The position numbers and the translations under genes were made by a program. The notes beneath the pieces are model-generated. The model did no database searches, was not told the DNA's origin, and worked only from the letters and a program-made list of their open reading frames with translations. Shown here piece after piece: positions 840 through 13,390 of a stretch of DNA of 13,390 nt. Position 1 is the first letter of the stretch. Each line of letters opens with the position of its first letter. This DNA comes from Blautia sp. (GTDB lineage Bacteria > Bacillota > Clostridia > Lachnospirales > Lachnospiraceae): the NCBI GenBank assembly GCA_017515945.1, contig JAFWDX010000048.1, positions 1 through 13,390 of the forward strand, in the 5' to 3' direction.

Positions 840-889
840 GACTTCTCGTAACTGTGAAGGAACTTGTGACCAAACAGTTACGACTTCTC
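840..889 (+). mobile_element. 34-bp IS66-type mini-element, copy A1, with 8-bp direct repeats
   Basis: The element itself is 848-881: it starts GTAACTGT, ends ACAGTTAC, and differs from the consensus copy (13252-13285) at three positions. It is flanked by a perfect 8-bp direct repeat GACTTCTC at 840-847 and 882-889, as expected of a target-site duplication. It lies in the 5' leader of the gene at 142-786, between promoter and ribosome site. GTAA ends with 8-bp duplications are characteristic of the IS66 family (established knowledge); the assignment here is inference, since no transposase is in the window. Confidence 0.75.
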
Positions 890-896
890 ATCTATT

Positions 897-925
897 AAAG
901 TACACAATTTTCCGTACTTTTTCAA
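897..925 (-). promoter_or_regulatory. Promoter of the phosphoribosyltransferase-like gene
   Basis: On the minus strand TTGAAA (920-925) and TACTTT (897-902) are 17 bases apart. The predicted start near 890 gives a leader of about 100 nt that contains the 34-bp element. Confidence 0.5.
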
Positions 926-954
926 GCTTTTTTCACAGTTCTTGTGTTTTATGT

Positions 955-1096
955 ACAAAACAACCATCCCCTTGGTCTTTGCAGTTCCTGTATTTTATAC
1001 ACAAAAGGGCCGTCCCCTTGATCTGCCCTTGATCTATTTTTAAACACAAAAGGACCGTCCCCTTGATCTTCCACAAAAGGACCGTCCCCTTGATCT
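955..1096 (+). repeat. REP-like repeat cluster, 'CCGTCCCCTTGATCT' type, four units
   Basis: Four related units of about 25 bp lie at 955-978 (diverged), 999-1024, 1044-1069 and 1072-1096. The last three share ACAAAAGG(A/G)CCGTCCCC followed by TTGATCT. The first three recur every 44-45 bp; the last is 28 bp after the third. An extra CCCTTGATCT at 1026-1035 is a partial unit. On the minus strand each unit can form a small GGAC/GTCC hairpin followed by T-rich sequence just after the patatin-like gene's stop codon, so the cluster may also dampen transcription there. Related cores occur near 8530 and 13004. Apart from this cluster, element A1 and the promoter, nothing else is seen in the 314-bp gap 787-1100. 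Confidence 0.8.
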
Positions 1097-1100
1097 TTTC

Positions 1101-1937
1101 TCATAAGAAATCCAGCAGTTTCTGCGCGTCTTCCATGCCCAGGTCATACATATGAAGGATCTTCCCCCTGTCCCGGGTGAGCGTGTCCATCCCGTCTATA
1201 CTGTAAGGCGCAAGGATCCGGACTTTCCCTTCTTTTTCCAGCCGGATCGCCTGATCAAGCTGATGATTATAGATATATGCCCGTCCGGCCATGACCTGTG
1301 CCGTTGCCGGGAACTGACGGCGGATCAGTTTGGCCAGCTTTTCGTCTTTGAGCGCGCTGCGGCGATAGTCCTTCGGTCTGGTGAGAATGATCACGACCTT
1401 TTCACAGCCGGCATCCAGCGCGTACTGAAACGGAATCGGATCACTGAGCCCGCCGTCATACAGCCTGCGGCCCTTCCATTTATAGGCTTTTGAAGCAAGC
1501 GGAACACAGGACGACCCCTTGACCGCGCCATAATCATCCTGAGCCATATCATGCATATCATAATAGACAGCTTCGCCGGTGTCCGCATCCGTGGCCACAA
1601 TCTTGAAGGTCTTTCCGGAACGCAGCATAGTCTGAAAATCCAGCGGGTCCTCTCCGCAGGAATTTGTCAGCCCGTCTCCATATATGTATTCCAGATCGAG
1701 GTAACTGCCGGTACGCAGCAGATTACGCTTGCTCATATACTCCTTGCGGAAGCTGTATTCGGAATATGACCGCAGGTTCCTGCCACGCTGACGCGAGATA
1801 TAGGAACAGCAATTCGCCGCACCGGCAGAGACGCCGATCAGATAATCAAATTCGATTCCCTTATCCAGGCAGTAATCAAAGATCCCTGCCCCGTATGCGC
1901 CTCTCATGCCACCGCCCACATCCACGACTCCGATCAT
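1101..1937 (-). CDS. Patatin-like phospholipase / acyl hydrolase
   Basis: A 278-residue patatin-family serine hydrolase, expected to hydrolyse acyl esters of lipids with a Ser-Asp dyad. The oxyanion loop is DVGGGMRG (residues 6-13), the nucleophile elbow is GVSAG with Ser37, and the catalytic Asp is in DGG at residue 161. There is no signal peptide or membrane segment, so it is probably cytoplasmic or membrane-peripheral. Length and motif spacing fit the bacterial YjjU-like group. The start at 1937 is preferred because AAAGGGATGA sits about 8 bases upstream; an ATG at 1949 has that motif touching it, and a TTG at 1992 lies inside a repeat. It follows the AAA+ ATPase gene on the same strand, but the 98-bp gap holds a 54-bp repeat that may act as a terminator, so co-transcription is uncertain. 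Native substrate cannot be read from sequence. Confidence 0.88.
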   Translation of the reverse strand: MIGVVDVGGGMRGAYGAGIFDYCLDKGIEFDYLIGVSAGAANCCSYISRQRGRNLRSYSEYSFRKEYMSKRNLLRTGSYLDLEYIYGDGLTNSCGEDPLDFQTMLRSGKTFKIVATDADTGEAVYYDMHDMAQDDYGAVKGSSCVPLASKAYKWKGRRLYDGGLSDPIPFQYALDAGCEKVVIILTRPKDYRRSALKDEKLAKLIRRQFPATAQVMAGRAYIYNHQLDQAIRLEKEGKVRILAPYSIDGMDTLTRDRGKILHMYDLGMEDAQKLLDFL

Positions 1938-1968
1938 ATATTTTTTCATCCCTTTCTGGCTGTTTATT

Positions 1969-2039
1969 GATTCTATGTATACTCGCGCGATCAAATAAAA
2001 GAAAAGTGTACCTGCTTTTCCGCGCGGTATAGATTCTAT
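1969..2039 (-). repeat. 54-bp inverted-repeat element B, copy 1, with 8-bp direct repeats
   Basis: The element spans 1978-2031, from TATACTCGCGCG to CGCGCGGTATA, near-perfect inverted ends. Inside is a hairpin GAAAAG (2001-2006) / CTTTTC (2015-2020). Read on the minus strand this stem is followed by TTTTATTT, so it is terminator-like, and it begins 5 bases after the AAA+ ATPase stop codon. The unit is flanked by an 8-bp perfect direct repeat GATTCTAT (1969-1976 and 2032-2039), suggesting insertion. Related copies are at 4753-4806 and 11143-11190. Confidence 0.65.
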
Positions 2040-3274
2040 TCCGAAAGATCCGGAATGACCTCGATCACGGGAGCATCATCCTCCTGTGTGCGGATCTCCT
2101 CCTCCGGATCCGGGACAGGCTCATCCGCCCTCATCTCAGGCAGTTCATCCTTGAGCACATCCGCGTTTGTGATCAGCCTGAGCTGATCCGGATCAGGGGA
2201 TGTCATCCGCGCAATGCGGGTGGCCTGATTGGTGATAATGACTTCAAACAAATTGCGGACATCCCGCGCATTCGCGAAGTTTTCCCCTTTCTGCTCCTCC
2301 ATCTGCCTGATCTTTGAAAGAACAGTCCGGCGTGCCTCCTCATCCAGCCTGTAATCATATTTTTTACATTGAAGCTCAAAAATGCCGATGAGTTCTTCCT
2401 GTGTATAGTCCGGGAATTCAAAATATTTGTTAAATCTCGATTTCAGACCCGGATTACTGTTGATAAATTTTTTCATCAGCTCCGTGTAGCCGGCGACGAT
2501 GACCACCAGATCATCCCTGTTGTCCTCCATAGCCTTCAGGATCGTGTCGATCGCCTCCTGTCCGAAGTCGTTTCCTTCTTTGGCAAGGGTATAGGCTTCA
2601 TCGATAAACAGGATCCCCCCCATGGCCTCGGCTATCTTTTCCTGTGTCTTTGCCGCAGTCTGGCCGACAAAACCGGCCACAAGGCCGGAACGATCCACTT
2701 CCACCAGCTGGCCCTTTGAAAGGGCTCCGATCTCTTTGTACAACCGGGCGAGGATCCTCGCCACCGTCGTCTTGCCGGTTCCCGGATTACCGGAAAAGAC
2801 AAGATGCTTGGAAACCGGCACGGCGCGCATACCCTGATCCGAACGGAGCTTTTGTGTCTTCACCAGCGCGATCAGCTCTTTCACATCATCCTTGATGCTC
2901 TCAAGCCCGATCAGTTCCTCCAGCTCTTGCATGGCGGTTTTTTCCGGTACAGGTTCCTTTTGCTGAACGGCCGTGTCGTGTGTTGCTTCATGTTCAGGCT
3001 GTTCTTCAGTCTCCGGGGCATGTACACCGTTTTGTATTGTATCGCCGGTATCAGTATCCGTCTTTTTGGTCTGCTGATCCTTATCCCGTACGATCGTAGA
3101 ACTGACCGCCTGAGTGATGGCATCAAAATCAGACAAGGCCATATTCTTTATCTTTTCAATATCATCCAGGAGATCCTCCGGCAGACCTTTTTCTTTCTCC
3201 TGCACAGGTTCATCTGAAGGCCCTTCTCCAAAAAAATCATCATATATCCTGCCAATATTCTTTAATTCCGGCAT
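2036..3274 (-). CDS. AAA+ ATPase of the CbbX/CfxQ-SpoVK family
   Basis: A 412-residue ATPase. Walker A is GNPGTGKTT (residues 162-170), Walker B ends ILFIDEA with Asp225-Glu226, a GFVGQT loop at 201-206 is the likely pore loop, the arginine finger is in NPGLKSRFN (Arg280), and sensor 2 is FANARDVRN (Arg337). Residues 1-115 are acidic and low in complexity, followed by the linker typical of CbxX proteins (ELIGLESIKDDVKEL). The C-terminal 35 residues are also acidic. Such ATPases form hexameric remodelling machines; known relatives act on RuBisCO, in sporulation (SpoVK) or in type VII secretion (EccA). None of those partners is present, so the client is unknown. The start at 3274 follows GGAGGAAGGG; the frame extends to a TTG at 3292 but that overlaps the ribosome site. 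It lies 32 bp after the phosphatase-like gene, probably one transcript. Confidence 0.9.
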   Translation of the reverse strand: MPELKNIGRIYDDFFGEGPSDEPVQEKEKGLPEDLLDDIEKIKNMALSDFDAITQAVSSTIVRDKDQQTKKTDTDTGDTIQNGVHAPETEEQPEHEATHDTAVQQKEPVPEKTAMQELEELIGLESIKDDVKELIALVKTQKLRSDQGMRAVPVSKHLVFSGNPGTGKTTVARILARLYKEIGALSKGQLVEVDRSGLVAGFVGQTAAKTQEKIAEAMGGILFIDEAYTLAKEGNDFGQEAIDTILKAMEDNRDDLVVIVAGYTELMKKFINSNPGLKSRFNKYFEFPDYTQEELIGIFELQCKKYDYRLDEEARRTVLSKIRQMEEQKGENFANARDVRNLFEVIITNQATRIARMTSPDPDQLRLITNADVLKDELPEMRADEPVPDPEEEIRTQEDDAPVIEVIPDLSE

Positions 3275-3306
3275 AGCCCTTCCTCCCTGCAAGGATCTCT
3301 ATATGC

Positions 3307-4725
3307 TCAGTTCAGTTCACCATAGGCAGAGGGATCTGTTTCGCCGCCCGCGTCTCCGCCGTATTGCTCTTCGCCGCCTGTATAACCCGTATAATCTGAA
3401 TAATCGGTATAATCCGTATCGTCTGTATAGTCCGTATAATATCCACCGTCTGAGTAATCGGTATAATACCCGCCGTCAGAATAATCGGTATAATCCGTGT
3501 AGCCGCCGTCTCCATACCAGTATTCGTCCGTGCCATACCCATACGTATCATCATAGTATGCGTAATCGGTAAATGTCTCGTATTCAGCCACATAGGCGTT
3601 GGCCAGGTATTCCTGCGTTGCCTGCGCCAGCTGCTCTTCTCCGCCGGCAACCGTGCCGGGATCCATACGCATCTCCAGATAACGTCCCCTCAACGCGGCA
3701 AAATCATCATCTGTAAGTCCTATGGCAGTCCGCAGATATCCTTCCACAGACCCATAGTCGCGCCCCAACACATCGGCAGCGCCGTCCAGCCAGGCAGTCT
3801 GTGCACTGTACGCGGCAGTCAGTTTCTCCTGCATGCTGCTGTCCGATACTTCCTCCAGGCCCTGGGCCAGCTTTTCCTGCAGAGCCGCTTCAGAAGACGC
3901 GTAATCCGTCCGGATCGTGTCTATGTTCACGCCAAGGGCTGCGAGGATCAAAAACGACGCCACGCCCGTGCGGTCCTTACCCAGAGAGGAATGGATCAGC
4001 ACAGACCCCTCCGCTCTCTTAAGCAGCTGGAACATAAGCTGGTATTCACGGATCGCCTGCTCTCCGAGGAGATAATCCGACGTATACCTTTCCTGAAGCC
4101 ACTCAGAAACCCCGACGCCTTTTTCATCCGCGGCATAGACCATCTGCATAGGAAAAGACGCATCCTCATCCGCGAGGGCCAGTACTGTCATTCCTGCACC
4201 TGAATTGCTGCCCAGGATCTCTTCCAGGCGGTAATTGTACACGCCTGTGATCGGCGGATCCGGACTTTTAGTGATCTCCAACGGATCACGCAGGTCTATG
4301 ATCATCGACAGATTCATATCCTGTGTGAGCTTGTTGAGATCCTCTTCCGAGATATGTGTCAGATCCCCGCTGCGCAGCAGAGTTGCCGGCTTGACAGGGC
4401 AGTCAAGATAGTCGACCAGCCCTCCCAGATCACGGAAATTGACCACGGAAGGGAGCACGACACTCTGTGTCTGTGTATCTGCAGCAGTATCGCTTTCTCC
4501 CGCAGCTGGTGTCTGCTCTTCCTGAGCTGCAGGGGTACCGGGATCCGACGTCACATCCGCAGCAGCCGTCACGGAATTATCACCCGCAGGCACAGAGCTG
4601 TTGGCCTCCGGTGATGAAGCAAAAAGCTCCTCCTGCGCGGATACAGACTGAACGATCGGTGCCGGAAGCAGCTGCAGCAGCGCAAGAGTACCACCGATCA
4701 ATGATGCCATATATTTCTTTTTCAT
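3307..4725 (-). CDS. Secreted tyrosine-phosphatase-like protein with catalytic Cys replaced by Ser; Tyr-rich tail
   Basis: A 472-residue protein preceded by GGAGGA six bases before its ATG. Residues 1-30 form a signal peptide with probable cleavage at SVSA/QE. Residues 31-90 are an Ala/Thr/acidic linker. Residues 91-355 match the bacterial tyrosine/lipid phosphatase family (PF13350 type): SVVNFRDLGG (93-102), LLRSGDL (116-122), MIIDLRDPLE (141-150) and the P-loop IHSSLGKDRTG (244-254). In this family the P-loop is HCxxGKDRTG; here the nucleophile position is Ser246 (codon TCC) while Arg252 and the rest are kept. It is therefore predicted to be inactive as a Cys phosphatase, perhaps a binding or substrate-trapping protein. 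Residues 373-468 hold 25 tyrosines in YTDY/YSDGGYYTDY-type repeats with Asp and Gly; no LPXTG sorting signal follows. Upstream of, and probably co-transcribed with, the AAA+ ATPase. Confidence 0.85.
   Translation of the reverse strand: MKKKYMASLIGGTLALLQLLPAPIVQSVSAQEELFASSPEANSSVPAGDNSVTAAADVTSDPGTPAAQEEQTPAAGESDTAADTQTQSVVLPSVVNFRDLGGLVDYLDCPVKPATLLRSGDLTHISEEDLNKLTQDMNLSMIIDLRDPLEITKSPDPPITGVYNYRLEEILGSNSGAGMTVLALADEDASFPMQMVYAADEKGVGVSEWLQERYTSDYLLGEQAIREYQLMFQLLKRAEGSVLIHSSLGKDRTGVASFLILAALGVNIDTIRTDYASSEAALQEKLAQGLEEVSDSSMQEKLTAAYSAQTAWLDGAADVLGRDYGSVEGYLRTAIGLTDDDFAALRGRYLEMRMDPGTVAGGEEQLAQATQEYLANAYVAEYETFTDYAYYDDTYGYGTDEYWYGDGGYTDYTDYSDGGYYTDYSDGGYYTDYTDDTDYTDYSDYTGYTGGEEQYGGDAGGETDPSAYGELN
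3361..3590 (-). repeat. Short tandem repeats encoding the Tyr/Asp-rich tail
   Basis: Within the phosphatase-like gene the DNA is a patchwork of short repeats with the theme TATAAT-CGG/CCG (plus-strand reading), encoding TDY, SDY and YSDGGYYTD units; TDYSDGGYY occurs twice in succession (residues 413-421 and 422-430). Such repeats can change length by slippage. The many TATAAT strings on the plus strand follow from the Tyr codons and are not taken as promoters. Confidence 0.7.
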
Positions 4726-4752
4726 AAATAGTCCTCCTGCCGCCCTTTGCCT

Positions 4753-4806
4753 TATACTCGCGCGATTAAATAAATGAAAAGAGTACCTGGACTTCCGCGA
4801 GGTATA
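4753..4806 (-). repeat. 54-bp inverted-repeat element B, copy 2
   Basis: Runs from TATACTCGCGCG to CGCGAGGTATA. The internal stem on the minus strand is GGAAG with CTTTT, which pairs with two G-U wobbles and is followed by ATTTATTT. It begins 12 bases after the stop codon of the shikimate-kinase-like gene, so it could end that transcript. The sequence TGCAGAG directly beyond (4807-4813) is shared with copy 3, so the conserved unit may be about 61 bp. No flanking direct repeat is seen. Confidence 0.6.
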
Positions 4807-4817
4807 TGCAGAGACGA

Positions 4818-5411
4818 TCAGGCAGTCAGTGCTTCAGTCAGAAAACGGACCACTTCCTCCACAGGCAGATCTCCCTCTCTGACCGTAATATCCGCATACC
4901 TCTCGTACAGTACGCTTCGTTCCGTGTATAGTTCGCCAAGTGACTGTCCCGGGCGCAGAACCACACCGCGCGATTTCATATCGCGCAGTCTCCTCTCAAG
5001 GTTTTCAAAAGGCACTTCGAGATAAACGATCCTGCCGATTTCTCTGAGATGCCTCATCGCTTTTTCACTGTAAACCACACTGCCGCCTGTAGCGATCACC
5101 GTCCCGGTATCAAACGGACCGATTTCAGAAACAATATCCCCCTCCAGGCAAAGAAAACCTTTGAGGCCCTCCGATTCGATCAGCTCCGGAAGGCGCCTGC
5201 CTGTCCGCCGCTGAATGACCAGATCCGTGTCCACAAAATCATAACCAAGGATCTTTGCGAGAATGACGCCGATCGTACTCTTTCCGGAAGCAGGCATGCC
5301 TGTAAGAACGATATGTTTTTGAACTGGCTGTGATTGTTCAGTCACAACAGGCTCAATTATTCCATTACAGCTATATATACTAGCACATTCGGTTCCTTTT
5401 CCTGTATTCAT
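4818..5411 (-). CDS. Shikimate kinase-like P-loop kinase
   Basis: A 197-residue P-loop kinase of the shikimate kinase group (shikimate + ATP to shikimate-3-phosphate in the aromatic amino acid pathway). Walker A is GMPASGKST (38-46), the substrate Asp is in DTD (61-63), the glycine motif is ATGGSVV (107-113), and the lid and substrate arginines appear in VLRPG (Arg153) and YTERSVLYERYAD (Arg165). The motif that normally reads FR with a shikimate-binding Arg is FLCLE here (86-90), and the GGG triplet is TGGS; the substrate may therefore differ. The domain starts only at residue 33; residues 15-28 are encoded by a degenerate copy of the 34-bp element (5330-5367). No start codon with a good ribosome site is found closer to the domain, so the ATG at 5411 is kept, with only weak support (AGG 13 bases upstream). 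It lies 19 bp after the small membrane protein gene, probably one operon. No other aro gene is nearby. Confidence 0.78.
   Translation of the reverse strand: MNTGKGTECASIYSCNGIIEPVVTEQSQPVQKHIVLTGMPASGKSTIGVILAKILGYDFVDTDLVIQRRTGRRLPELIESEGLKGFLCLEGDIVSEIGPFDTGTVIATGGSVVYSEKAMRHLREIGRIVYLEVPFENLERRLRDMKSRGVVLRPGQSLGELYTERSVLYERYADITVREGDLPVEEVVRFLTEALTA
5330..5367 (-). repeat. Degenerate 34-bp element inside the shikimate-kinase-like coding sequence
   Basis: Bases 5330-5347 match the reverse complement of the consensus element at 16 of 18 positions, including a 12-base exact match GTTCAGTCACAA. The rest is diverged with a small insertion (CAG then GCTC) and ends ATTAC. It is in frame and gives residues 15-28 of the protein; VTEQ is the same peptide that intact copies encode in this frame. 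Confidence 0.55.
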
Positions 5412-5430
5412 AAGTACTCAGACCTGTTTT

Positions 5431-5871
5431 TCATTCATCCGTCTGTGACTCCCCTGCTCCGGAACCGGTCTGCTCTGCTTCGTCAGGACCATTTTCCAGA
5501 GTCTGTGCGAGTCTTGCACGTTCTGAGATCGACATCTTTTCAGCTTTTTCCTGAATTTTTTCTTTATTCATTCTGTTTTTCTTTTCTTTGTCTTCCTTTG
5601 CAAGGCCTCTGGTCGCTTTTATGACGAGAAAAACGCCAAATCCGATAAAACCGGCCCCCACCACGAAAAAGCCAAGCGCAGAGCCCTCTTCCTTAAGGAT
5701 ATAGCCTCTGCAGAGCTGGTACCCGGTGTACGCCAGGAAAGCGCCGGCCACGAGCCAGAGCGTCAATGAACGCTGGTCGTTCCGGACAGTTTCGGTTTCT
5801 TTTTCTTCCGCGGAGGCTTCTGGTCCGTCAGTGATCCTCTGCGTATCCGGTTCTTTGATCTCTTTATGCAT
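5431..5871 (-). CDS. Small membrane protein with two transmembrane helices, function unknown
   Basis: A 146-residue protein I do not recognise. The start at 5871 is chosen because GGAGGAGATT immediately precedes that ATG. The frame extends to an ATG at 5997, but that lies only about 8 bases from the predicted transcription start and has no ribosome site, and the intervening DNA holds a degenerate copy of the 34-bp element. Residues 1-35 are charged, helix 1 is about residues 37-57 (LTLWLVAGAFLAYTGYQL), helix 2 about 64-86 (ALGFFVVGAGFIGFGVFLVI), and the rest is a Lys/Glu-rich tail likely to be coiled coil and cytoplasmic. It heads the operon with the shikimate-kinase-like gene (19-bp gap), but nothing in its sequence points to that pathway. 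Confidence 0.75.
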   Translation of the reverse strand: MHKEIKEPDTQRITDGPEASAEEKETETVRNDQRSLTLWLVAGAFLAYTGYQLCRGYILKEEGSALGFFVVGAGFIGFGVFLVIKATRGLAKEDKEKKNRMNKEKIQEKAEKMSISERARLAQTLENGPDEAEQTGSGAGESQTDE

Positions 5872-5896
5872 AATCTCCTCCATATCAGCTGCTGCA

Positions 5897-5930
5897 GCAA
5901 CTGTTCCGGCACAGACTCCTTCGCAGGCTC
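5897..5930 (-). repeat. Degenerate 34-bp element in a 5' leader
   Basis: On the minus strand 23 of 29 bases match the consensus element (GAAGGAG, TGTG and GAACAGTT blocks kept). It lies in the leader between the promoter at 6012-6040 and the start codon at 5871. No flanking direct repeat remains, as expected of an old copy. Confidence 0.5.
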
Positions 5931-6011
5931 CTTTTGTTTCAGGCTCTGGCAGGGTCCTGCCGTGAATGACACCACTCTGATATATAACGTGATCCATATC
6001 ACTCTGGTATA

Positions 6012-6040
6012 ATTATAGAAGCAGGATTGAAAGTTGTCAA
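6012..6040 (-). promoter_or_regulatory. Consensus promoter of the small membrane protein / kinase operon
   Basis: On the minus strand TTGACA (6035-6040) and TATAAT (6012-6017) are both perfect and 17 bases apart. The expected start is near 6005, giving a leader of about 130 nt before the ATG at 5871. Confidence 0.85.
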
Positions 6041-6062
6041 TGAAGCCGGGATATGTTAATAT
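6034..6062 (+). promoter_or_regulatory. Divergent promoter of the acidic membrane protein gene
   Basis: TTGTCA (6034-6039) and TAATAT (6057-6062) are 17 bases apart. Its -35 box overlaps that of the opposite promoter, because TTGTCAA reads TTGACAA on the other strand. The predicted start near 6069 places both 34-bp elements in the leader. Confidence 0.6.
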
Positions 6063-6066
6063 ATGA

Positions 6067-6116
6067 TGCAAAGGGTAACTGTGAAGGAGCTTGTGACTGA
6101 ACAGCTACTGCAAAGG
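6067..6116 (+). mobile_element. 34-bp IS66-type mini-element, copy A4, with 8-bp direct repeats
   Basis: The element (6075-6108) differs from the consensus at one position. A perfect 8-bp repeat TGCAAAGG flanks it at 6067-6074 and 6109-6116. The last base of the right repeat is the first base of the next element (6116-6149), so this copy seems to have inserted across the edge of an older one. Confidence 0.78.
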
Positions 6117-6149
6117 TAACTGTAAAGCAGCTTGCGGCTGAGCAGCCAC
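6116..6149 (+). mobile_element. 34-bp mini-element, copy A5, diverged
   Basis: Starts GTAACTGT but ends GCAGCCAC, with seven differences from the consensus, so the terminal inverted repeat is broken. It lies directly beside copy A4 and 35 bases upstream of the start codon at 6185. No flanking duplication is recognisable. Confidence 0.6.
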
Positions 6150-8588: not shown

Positions 8589-8622
8589 ATAACTGTGAAG
8601 GAGCTTGTGGCTGAACAGTTAC
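8589..8622 (+). mobile_element. 34-bp mini-element, copy A6
   Basis: Two differences from the consensus, one being A for the first G. No flanking direct repeat. A further, weakly similar stretch follows at about 8629-8662 (GGAG, CTGAACAGT blocks) and may be a decayed copy. Both lie between convergent transcription units. Confidence 0.7.
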
Positions 8623-11142: not shown

Positions 11143-11190
11143 TATACCGCATGGAAAATCAGGCAGATTTTCCATTTATTTAATCGCGCG
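11143..11190 (+). repeat. Inverted-repeat element B, copy 3, truncated
   Basis: Read on the minus strand, CGCGCGATTAAATAAATG matches copy 2 exactly for 18 bases, and the other end keeps GCGGTATATGCAGAG. The internal stem is different but stronger: TGGAAAATC (11152-11160) with GATTTTCCA (11166-11174). The terminal TATACT is missing, replaced by the start of a 34-bp element at 11190. Its orientation is opposite to copies 1 and 2. It occupies most of the gap between the HD-GYP and acyl-CoA synthetase-like genes. Confidence 0.6.
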
Positions 11191-11223
11191 TAACTGTGAA
11201 GGAGGTTGTGACTGAACAGTTAC
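11190..11223 (+). mobile_element. 34-bp mini-element, copy A7, overlapping a gene's stop codon
   Basis: One difference from the consensus. Its right end, GTTAC, contains on the minus strand the TAA stop codon (11220-11222) of the acyl-CoA synthetase-like gene. Flanks are AATCGCGC and GCAGCTTC, so no duplication is visible; GC on both sides extends the inverted repeat. Confidence 0.75.
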
Positions 11224-12935
11224 GCAGCTTCTTTTTCAGCCTCCTGCATAAGCTTGCGGTAATCCGTTTTTCCCACCAGTGTCCGTGGCAATGCATCTTT
11301 AAAGATGATCTCCTTCGGCAGCGCGTAACGCGCAACTTTCTTCTCCAGATAAGCCAGGATCCGGTCCTTGCACTCCTGTGAAGGCTCCACGCCCTTCTTC
11401 AGGACCACATAGGCCTGTACCCGCTGCATGCGCCTGGGATCCGGTACACCGATCACACAACTCTCCACCACCTCCGGGATCGAATCGAGGGCATTCTCGA
11501 TCTGACCCGGGTATACATTGTATCCGTTGGTAATGATCATACGCTTCGCGCGCTGAATGAAGTAGACGAAGCCGTCTTTATCCATCCGGCCAAGATCGCC
11601 TGTATAAAGCCAGATATGTCCGTCTGACAGCTTGCGCAGTGTCTGGGCGGTTTCTTTTTCATTTTTGAGATATCCCGTCATGACTGTCGGGCCGCGGAGA
11701 ATGATCTCCCCTTCTGCTCCCGGGGCAAGCAGTTCATCAGTCCCCGGTCTGACAATCGCGTAAAAGGTGTCTTTAAACGGAATGCCGATGCTTCCCTCCC
11801 TGTACTCATGCAGCGGCGTCAGGCAGCTGGCGGTCACGCATTCCGTAAGGCCGTAACCCTCTCTGACCTGAATGTCAGCTCCGTGCTCCTTCAGGAAGGC
11901 ATCAATCCTCTTTTTGAGCTCTACAGGAAGGCTGTCCCCTCCGCTGTACATTCCCTTCAGGAAGGACAGATCCACACCGTCAAGCTGGGGCAGATGCAGC
12001 AGTGCCTCAAAAATAGTCGGTACGCCGGCGATAAAGTTCGGGCGTTTCTTTTTCAGCATTTGTGCATAGCTTTTGCTTGTAAAGGTGGGCATCAGAATGC
12101 AGCAGGCTCCGTGGATCAGGATCGTATGCAGATTGATGCCAAGGCCGAAGCCGTGGAACATGGGCATGCAGCTAAGCATGGTCTGGCCGTACCCAAGCTC
12201 CACCCCTATGGCCTCCCTGGCCTGCATCGCACAGGCGTTAATGTTCAGATCCGTCAGACAGATCCCCTTGGGTGTGCCGCTGGTGCCTCCGCTGTAGAGA
12301 ATGACCGCCGTGCGCCCGTCTTCAAATGAAGGCTCCGGCAGCGTGATCGACGCAGCGCCTTTTTTAAGGAATGCCTTCCATGTCATATCCTTAAGGCCTG
12401 CTGCCTGACCCGCTTTTTTTCTATCCGGACAGTGCAGGTATTTCCTGCCTGTCTTCAGTGTATAGGCCAGTCCCATGTGAACCGGCAGCTCCTCCTGCAT
12501 CCGCGCAGTCAGGATCGTTACAGGATGATCAGCCCTGTCCCGGGCCGCGGCTGCTTTTTCATAAAACATATCCATAGTCAGGATGAGGCTGCTCTCTGAG
12601 ATATTCAGATAGAATGTGATCTCCTCTTCTGCAGAAAGCGGATGGACCATATTGGCGACGGCCCCGATCCTGTTGACCGCGTAAAAGCAGACAAGCCCCT
12701 GAGGGGTGTTGGGCATGCAGATCGTGATCACATCGCCCTTACCCAGTCCCGCAGAAGTAAACGCGCGGGCTGCCTGTTCAATTTTGTCCACAAAGCTGCG
12801 GAATGTCGTTTTCTTCCCAAAAAATTCGTATGCAGGCGCCTGCGGATGTGCCTCCGCCATCCTGTTCACCATCTCAAACATGGTAAGACGGGGGTAGTCC
12901 AGTTCAAATGCCTGCATCTTAGACTCAGTTTCCAT
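11220..12935 (-). CDS. Acyl-CoA synthetase-like AMP-forming ligase
   Basis: A 571-residue member of the adenylate-forming (AMP-binding) superfamily, which activates a carboxylate with ATP to an acyl-AMP and usually passes it to CoA. Visible motifs: P-loop YSGGTSGTPKG (214-224), GVPTIFE (304-310), YGLTE (361-365), the ribose-binding Asp in YTGDLGR (Asp447), the hinge region VYFIQRAKRMI (457-467), GYNVYPGQIE (471-480) and the C-terminal catalytic Lys in GKTDY (Lys556). Length and motifs suit a long-chain or medium-chain fatty acyl-CoA ligase, but the substrate pocket cannot be read. No signal peptide or membrane segment is seen. The start at 12935 follows TGGAGAAAACC; a good promoter lies at 12968-12996. 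The stop codon lies within a 34-bp element, which may have trimmed or replaced the original C-terminus. Confidence 0.9.
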   Translation of the reverse strand: METESKMQAFELDYPRLTMFEMVNRMAEAHPQAPAYEFFGKKTTFRSFVDKIEQAARAFTSAGLGKGDVITICMPNTPQGLVCFYAVNRIGAVANMVHPLSAEEEITFYLNISESSLILTMDMFYEKAAAARDRADHPVTILTARMQEELPVHMGLAYTLKTGRKYLHCPDRKKAGQAAGLKDMTWKAFLKKGAASITLPEPSFEDGRTAVILYSGGTSGTPKGICLTDLNINACAMQAREAIGVELGYGQTMLSCMPMFHGFGLGINLHTILIHGACCILMPTFTSKSYAQMLKKKRPNFIAGVPTIFEALLHLPQLDGVDLSFLKGMYSGGDSLPVELKKRIDAFLKEHGADIQVREGYGLTECVTASCLTPLHEYREGSIGIPFKDTFYAIVRPGTDELLAPGAEGEIILRGPTVMTGYLKNEKETAQTLRKLSDGHIWLYTGDLGRMDKDGFVYFIQRAKRMIITNGYNVYPGQIENALDSIPEVVESCVIGVPDPRRMQRVQAYVVLKKGVEPSQECKDRILAYLEKKVARYALPKEIIFKDALPRTLVGKTDYRKLMQEAEKEAA

Positions 12936-12996: not shown

Positions 12997-13037
12997 ACAG
13001 GAAAACAAGGGGACGGGGTAGAAACACGGACGCCGGA

Positions 13038-13066
13038 TGAGTCACGGGGACAGGTTCCTTGACTCA
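13038..13066. repeat. REP-like repeat, 'CCTGTCCCC' type, copy 2 (reverse)
   Basis: TGAGTCA (13038-13044) to TGACTCA (13060-13066); exact reverse complement of copy 1 at 69-97. It forms an inverted pair with copy 3, 92 bases away. Confidence 0.85.
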
Positions 13067-13158
13067 TTCGCCCGCATTCCAAGAGAGCCATGCGCCTCGT
13101 ACGTTTTTTTGCCGATGGTCAACCGGGGGATACATCCGGCGTTGCCCGCCGTGAAGGA

Positions 13159-13187
13159 TGAGTCAAGGAACCTGTCCCCCTGACTCA
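13159..13187. repeat. REP-like repeat, 'CCTGTCCCC' type, copy 3
   Basis: Same orientation as copy 1 with a single G to C change just before TGACTCA. With copy 2 it could fold a long hairpin, the arrangement called a REPIN. Confidence 0.85.
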
Positions 13188-13217
13188 CCCTGAGGTAGTC
13201 CGTAACATAACTTGTGA

Positions 13218-13251: not shown

Positions 13252-13285
13252 GTAACTGTTCAGTCACAAGCTCCTTCACAGTTAC
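13252..13285 (-). mobile_element. 34-bp mini-element, copy A8, consensus sequence
   Basis: This copy, on the minus strand, has the majority base at every position and is used here as the reference. Ends are GTAACTGT and ACAGTTAC. Flanks AATATTAT and GAGGCCAG show no duplication. No coding capacity of its own. Confidence 0.75.
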
Positions 13286-13381
13286 GAGGCCAGGCGCGGG
13301 CTCCTTTCGTCGCATTGGAAGTGCGCCTGGCCTTGACTGTTCATCTTTTGATCCACGCACCTCGCAGTAAATGCGAGGTGC
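13286..13381 (+). other. Two strong hairpins in a possible structured leader or small RNA
   Basis: Hairpin one pairs AGGCCAGGCGC (13287-13297) with GCGCCTGGCCT (13323-13333) around a 25-base loop. Hairpin two pairs GCACCTCGC (13357-13365) with GCGAGGTGC (13373-13381) around 7 bases. Neither is followed by a T run on the plus strand. Both lie downstream of the promoter at 13218-13246. I match them to no known RNA class. The last bases, TGACTGAAC, look like part of another 34-bp element cut by the window edge. Confidence 0.4.
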
Positions 13382-13390
13382 TGACTGAAC

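Follow-up and report, generated by a model that had tools for sequence, protein, structure and literature searches.

Can a palindrome of only 34 bp be a transposon in its own right? This question is raised by a 13,390-bp stretch of Blautia sp. DNA (the window; contig JAFWDX010000048.1 of assembly GCA_017515945.1, C304 in our numbering), in which a 34-mer without a transposase open reading frame (ORF), bounded by perfect 8-bp inverted ends, recurs at several places. The host assembly comprises 2.63 Mb in 518 contigs and is 79% complete. At a probability of roughly 0.55, we read the 34-mer as a non-autonomous transposable unit of extremely small size, whose ends are those of the ISBst12 group in the IS66 family and which is moved in trans. 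That group is taken here as elements with a single transposase ORF, termini resembling GTAAC[AT][AG][TC]TCAG and an 8-bp target duplication, and its name is applied to these ends presumptively.

Copies of the 34-mer and their 8-bp duplications

Five window copies match the consensus 34-mer GTAACTGTGAAGGAGCTTGTGACTGAACAGTTAC with 0-3 mismatches, at the positions given by an initial annotation made from the sequence alone, and 200 dinucleotide shuffles yielded none. Four of these stand free on the plus strand, at 848..881 (3 mismatches), 6075..6108 (1 mismatch), 8589..8622 (2 mismatches) and 11190..11223 (1 mismatch). The fifth, an exact consensus 34-mer at 13252-13285, forms the right terminus of a longer repeat on the minus strand (13252..13390, cut by the contig end), such that the annotation's statement that the flanks share nothing holds for the free copies and fails here. 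Comparison of the flanks revealed that the two perfect 8-bp direct repeats that had been reported are exact, with GACTTCTC at 840..847 (read directly) and 882..889, and TGCAAAGG at 6067..6074 and 6109..6116; the other two of the four free clear copies (8589 and 11190) lack a direct repeat, with 7 of 8 flank bases differing. Base 6116 doubles as the first base of an older, diverged copy (6116..6149, plus strand, 7 mismatches), at whose border the copy at 6075 inserted. This diverged copy and two degenerate copies on the minus strand, at 5897..5930 (9 mismatches) and 5330..5363 (12 mismatches, ungapped), all previously proposed, exceed 60 shuffles, which gave on average 0.00 matches at ≤9 mismatches and 0.03 at ≤12.

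Searching the genome and its relatives with the 34-mer at ≤3 mismatches revealed 279 copies in the host (0 for the reversed pattern) and none in 298 other genomes sampled across the family. At ≤5 mismatches, the loci then examined contained 152 distinct copies, of which 96 follow a conserved hairpin arm and the other 56 stand free. When the flanking 8-mers were tabulated, as the annotation had suggested, a large excess of repeats emerged in the contigs examined: the 8-bp direct repeat was perfect around 14 of the 56 free copies and had a single mismatch around another 7, with no 9-bp repeat among them and, over all other lengths from 3 to 12 bases, only one perfect repeat of 3 and one of 7. 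The embedded copies, which serve as an internal control, are never duplicated at the same border (0 of 96, all with ≥4 mismatches there). Densities and ratios are biased since most contigs were picked for holding an exact copy; a later set of 132,711 bases in 32 contigs, seven of these picked for known copies, held 12 copies at ≤3 mismatches. Duplications decay as copies age, with repeats of ≤1 mismatch around 16 of 23 free consensus-identical copies, 5 of 10 with one change and 4 of 35 with two or more.

These flanks bear on the idea that the 34-mer is a REP- or REPIN-like palindrome spread by a RAYT (HUH) transposase. Like REPINs, the 34-mer is short, palindromic, mostly intergenic and present in hundreds of copies; unlike them, it has 8-bp duplications and IS66-type ends that recur, nearly identical, on IS66-family elements. 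To our knowledge, target duplications are not expected of HUH transposases or REPIN-RAYT systems, and we regard this origin as very improbable.

The 34-mer as the right end of a larger hairpin element

A larger repeat that carries the 34-mer as its right end was missed by the first reading of the sequence. This hairpin element measures 144-187 bp, has 8-bp duplications outside and accounts for 107 of the 176 34-mers in the contigs examined. Pairs of GTAACTGT...ACAGTTAC with ≤2 mismatches per pair, 20-6000 bp apart and with a perfect 8-bp repeat outside were sought in 571,262 bases from 89 loci, which revealed 60 pairs vs 5 summed over six shifted controls. Their sizes form classes, with 15 pairs of 34 bp, 21 of 144-145, 14 of 165-166 and 4 of 186-187, plus single pairs at 61, 100, 128, 153, 204 and 224 bp, such that 42 of the 60 fall in 144-224 bp. 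The 145-bp class starts with GTAACTGTTCAGTCAGCACCTCGC, contains two hairpins and the whole 34-mer at its end, has inverted ends of 15 bp, and folds as single-stranded DNA at -44.8 kcal/mol (z -8.4 vs shuffles). The size steps of ~21 bp are optional extensions of the hairpin stems; such extensions (CACCGAAGGCGTCCCTTGGG) sit on one, both or neither hairpin arm (L027:1331-1534, L106:8581-8767, L022). The terminal motif lies within 260 bp of 47 of 152 contig ends among 76 whole contigs. Separately, tandem partial units of 26 bp (GAAGGAGCTTGTGACTGAACAGTTAC) lie beside 34-mers in L091 (first 71 bases), L060 (near 9842, minus strand) and L007.

In our reading, an ISBst12-group transposase acting in trans would recognize GTAACTGTTCAG-type ends and insert the DNA that they bound at AT-rich, mostly intergenic targets cut with an 8-bp stagger. 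The host has two non-autonomous classes with these ends, the 144-187-bp hairpin element and the 34-bp unit, the latter formed by the large element's right end, in which a second, inward copy of GTAACTGT places both transposon ends within 34 bp. We infer that a transposase acted in trans, that it has been lost from the host genome or was not assembled there, and that the 34-bp unit is itself moved; the 34-mer may be able to move on its own, the transposase then using the inner copy of the end. A wider version of this proposal, which we hold tentatively at just short of even odds, is that an IS66-type transposase synapses and moves a complete 26-34-bp transposon with ~12 bp of recognition per end, a natural minimal transposon that would have arisen in at least three forms (27, 28 and 34 bp) in one genus by second-end capture inside a larger hairpin element.

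Ends shared with full-length IS66-family elements

The assignment to IS66, an inference in the initial annotation, is supported at the subgroup level because elements of the genus, of Geobacillus and of Deinococcus, the last of these active, share such ends together with 8-bp duplications. Within the genus, the IS66 transposase domain PF03050 occurs in 31 of 64 genomes, and full-length IS66-family elements have the ends GTAACAGTTCAG or GTAACTATTCAG and 8-bp duplications. Loci are counted as full-length where both ends were seen together with a perfect 8-bp duplication; the majority of the remaining loci read, among them many cut or partial ones, lacked such a pair. Three of the full-length elements are L249 (1696 bp; end GTAACTATTCAGAACCCC / GTAACTATTCAGAACC; transposase broken), L255 (1893 bp; GTAACAGTTCAGATA; 515-aa ORF) and L259 (1835 bp; GTAACAGTTCAGCC; 485-aa ORF). 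Five more (L256, L257, L268, L269 and L271) have ends of the form GTTAC..., which in L257, L268 and L271 read GTTACTGTTCA, and L273 has GTAAATGG...; L297 and L308 are further copies of the G299 element found at L268, with different duplications. Outside the genus, two Geobacillus plasmid elements start with GTAACTATTCAGCC and a Planococcus element with GTAACTACTTAGG, each with a perfect 8-bp repeat, and inspection of a Deinococcus plasmid locus and a phage-labelled contig revealed no such ends with an 8-bp repeat. PMC12898284 describes ISDge4 (Deinococcus, ISBst12 group) as trapped in the act of transposition; its ends are GTGACTACTCAGCA and GTAACTGCTCAGCA, and the repeat is CCTCGATG.

Over its first 12 bases, GTAACTGTTCAG agrees at 11 positions with L249, L255, L259 and the left ends of the Geobacillus elements, and equally well with one ISDge4 end (11/12, from the sequence in PMC12898284). 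The right end of the large elements in the sister species G352 and G326 is GTAACTATTCAG, identical to the first 12 bases of the L249 end, and the L259 and L255 proteins match the Pfam model DDE_Tnp_IS66 (E 2.7e-18 and 3.9e-18). The ends are therefore filed, provisionally as to the group name, under the IS66 family, ISBst12 group, on the single-ORF criterion of PMC12898284 rather than on a curated model; the ends, the duplication and the family are well supported. Compared with the members of that group considered here (ISDge4; the ISGka4-family IS66-like element of Geobacillus plasmid pHTA426; L249, L255 and L259), which share ends close to the stated pattern and 8-bp duplications, the difference lies in content, as full-length members measured 1.5-2.4 kb with a transposase gene whereas the short units have none. 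Classic IS66 elements (L240 and L272, both with GTAAGCGTC and flanked by a perfect 8-bp duplication; host contig C266) share the GTAA start, and L240 and L272 the 8-bp duplication, but their ends are GTAAGCGTCA and not GTAACTGT as here.

Several observations weigh against our reading, beginning with the parent. The annotation had suggested looking within this genome for an IS66 element with such ends; the host yielded none, and the near-identical ends lie instead on elements of sister species. Specifically, no ISBst12-type transposase was detected in the 79% complete host by PF03050 or by alignment with the L255 and L259 proteins, and the same alignment finds relatives in 17 of 64 genomes and not in the copy-bearing G358, G326 and G352 (G326 being 99% complete in 2 contigs). 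The host's own IS66 (contig C266, its sole IS66 match) was rejected as parent, as by eye it has the end-like GTAAGCGTCA and lacks GTAACTGT. The NCBIfam IS66 model scores three of the proteins below its cut-off (136.8-156.6 vs 180 bits), and none of the motif-bearing contig ends, read by eye and untranslated, continued into transposase-like sequence. Further, two ends that are both bound by transposase would be cramped on a single duplex of 34 bp (27 bp in G352), any free 34-mer might equally be what is left of the larger element, and sister species not infrequently have short forms in which the interior is deleted while the duplication and the two outer ends are retained. Either the parent has been lost, or it was not assembled, or it is too distant for these searches to detect. 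Scanning viral contigs with the transposase alignment gave 77 stretches that fit the peptide pattern, none of which was confirmed, and among phages one remote match in an unverified record, without ends found. In G306, several contig boundaries fall 84 bp into one and the same gene for an IS66-type transposase (first 84 bases of C32, C54 and C55; C20 119433-119516), as expected for a multi-copy element.

Short units in sister species and the deletion alternative

Within the genus, the 34-mer occurs in 4 of 59 other genomes at one or two copies each; in G324 one copy has the perfect duplication GAAATGTC (L093) and another has two mismatches in the repeat (L092). A looser form, GTAACTGT-N8-30-ACAGTTAC, is present in 35 of the 64 genus genomes including the host, with the reversed control in 3. 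Sister species have their own short units, such as the 28-bp GTAACTGTTCATGGTTCTGAACAGTTAC of G358, with duplications of ≤1 mismatch in 10 of 12 free copies (8 perfect); there too a larger element, of 135 bp, ends in the short unit, and 8 of 9 have duplications. G352 has a 27-bp unit (GTAACTGTTCAGTACCCTCACAGTTAC), of which nine copies were examined: the duplication is perfect in L371, L373 and L374 and has one mismatch in L228; L372 and L223 are part of a 141-bp element; and L375, L376 and L378 run on into the interior of the larger element and lack a far end to match. In G339, a repeat of ≤1 mismatch flanks 2 of 8 free 27-bp units (L174 and L380), the others having 2-7 mismatches. Scanning the non-host loci, without a shifted control, returned 29 distinct short elements (26-50 bp) whose flanking repeats differ at no more than one base and are perfect in 17, including a 26-bp unit with the perfect duplication TCGTTATC (L193). 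Elements of 36-44 bp with the same ends, repeats of ≤1 mismatch and different interiors were seen (L184:1501, L175:1501, L231:1501 and L190:1501), the interior of L184 (43 bp) being unrelated.

Such forms bring in the most serious alternative, namely that only the 144-187-bp element is mobile and that a free 34-mer is the scar left when the middle is lost between the two GTAACTGT copies, much as a retroelement that is lost leaves a solo long terminal repeat behind, the 26-28-bp forms arising likewise. We consider this a real contender that falls some way below an even chance. The large element does have an 8-bp direct repeat of GTAACTGT with strong hairpins in between, and hairpins between direct repeats favor slippage. 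Internally deleted, duplicated forms exist in the host at 61, 100 and 128 bp, and six sister-species forms of 42-50 bp keep one of the large element's outer ends at one side and a GTAACTGT-like end at the other, with perfect duplications in L181, L211 and L192 and one mismatch in L209, L214 and L218. These six compare with seven 27-bp forms in the same sister-species set, a ratio that is biased because the loci came from searches for such ends. Individually, L181:1501 and L192:1478 are internally deleted forms of 42 and 50 bp with the perfect duplications TATTTTTC and GAAAGAAT. Free copies are also more diverged on average, with 23 of 68 consensus-identical vs 73 of 107 embedded ones, and no free-copy subfamily with private variants stands out.

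What speaks against a scar is the behavior of the supposed deletions. Slippage would have a direct repeat of 11 bp to work with in G358, one of 8 bp in the host and one of only 6 bp (AGTTAC) in G352, and yet the free share of duplicated copies (≤1 mismatch), at 10/18, 24/75 and 4/6, respectively, does not rise with repeat length, though numbers are small and the host share leaves out the 100- and 128-bp forms. Likewise, among host copies with perfect duplications, other deletion end points number 3 vs 15 exact 34-mers. The first base of the duplication is G in 8 of 30 free vs 33 of 55 large host elements (p=0.006; exploratory, one of several positions), a difference that carries no weight because G358 does not repeat it (5/10 free vs 2/8 large), and the whole 8-mer does not differ between free and large host copies (permutation p 0.19).

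Insertion sites and empty sites

Across 77 sites, the duplication starts with a purine and then A (second base A in 79%), with AT-rich, C-poor DNA upstream. Insertion is mostly intergenic, as 26 of the 77 sites fall within mechanical ORFs of ≥120 aa compared with 82% of 1540 control positions. Promoter targeting, suggested by the first flanks, was rejected, since the 77-site profile has no positioned -10 motif. When the element and one repeat copy were removed and the joined flanks compared with the sequence collected in this analysis, 17 of the 77 sites gave an alignment across the joint, several of them weak or a site matched to its own element end. The clear empty sites are paralogous repeats, at L091:1384 (93%/85 bp), L065:3397 (96%/68 bp) and L039:2047 (88%/102 bp), and at L080:2930 one 34-mer is nested inside another with the duplication AAAGGAAC. 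For the window copy at 848, the corresponding stretches of G329 and G333 carry no such element, and their intergenic parts are too diverged to align.

A preference for intergenic DNA, together with hairpin formation, might also be seen if the repeat had a function, as a regulator site, terminator or RNA, and owed its spread to selection or chance. Exact 8-bp duplications, nested insertions and abundance in one genome argue against such an origin, which we judge to be the least probable of those considered here, even as secondary use of the 34-mer may occur. Rfam gave no gathering-level match to the 34-mer in the window, and in three loci nothing that overlaps it reached E≤1; across the window and these loci, the gathering-level matches were two tRNAs, and a single sub-threshold match lay clear of the element.

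Relation to known mobile elements

The 34-mer resembles miniature inverted-repeat transposable elements (MITEs) in having no transposase ORF, inverted ends, a fixed 8-bp duplication and a high, dispersed copy number. It shares with bacterial MITEs non-autonomy, inverted ends, target duplications and many intergenic copies, and it differs from them in that the units here measure 26-34 bp and that the short form is nested in a longer mobile form. MITE sizes are given as 50-1000 bp in PMC4596501 and as generally under 300 bp in PMC3189936; the usual 50-1000 bp includes the 144-187-bp form and not 34 bp, although size is descriptive, not mechanistic. Searching the literature, with most subscription journals outside coverage, revealed no report of IS66-type or sub-50-bp MITEs, and the matches listed for the end sequences were, judged by title, on other subjects.

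If the 26-34-bp units move by themselves, they would be among the shortest mobile DNA units known, would place a lower limit on what can be handled as a transposon by a DDE transposase, and would supply a minimal donor, ready for use, for the transposition mechanism of the IS66 family and its ISBst12 group, described in PMC12898284 as insufficiently characterized. If they are scars, they would mark a route, as with solo long terminal repeats, by which MITEs turn into small palindromes left where the genome has no visible transposase. In both cases, they explain one repeat family that is frequent at contig ends of the host assembly and make IS66-type ends recognizable from orphan palindromes.

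Other repeats and genes in the window

The end of the copy at 11190..11223 provides the TAA stop of an ORF on the minus strand (11220-12935). Other short repeats of a different family lie at 961-1110, 60-100 and 13020-13190, with ACAAAAGGACCGTCCCCTTGATCT present several times and GAGTCAAGGAACCTGTCCCC(G/C)TGACTCA. A further interspersed repeat, TATACTCGCGCGATYAAATAAA..., occurs at 1977-2035, 4755-4805 and 11175-11189; relatives of it in other contigs are interrupted by the 145-bp element and provide paralogous empty sites.

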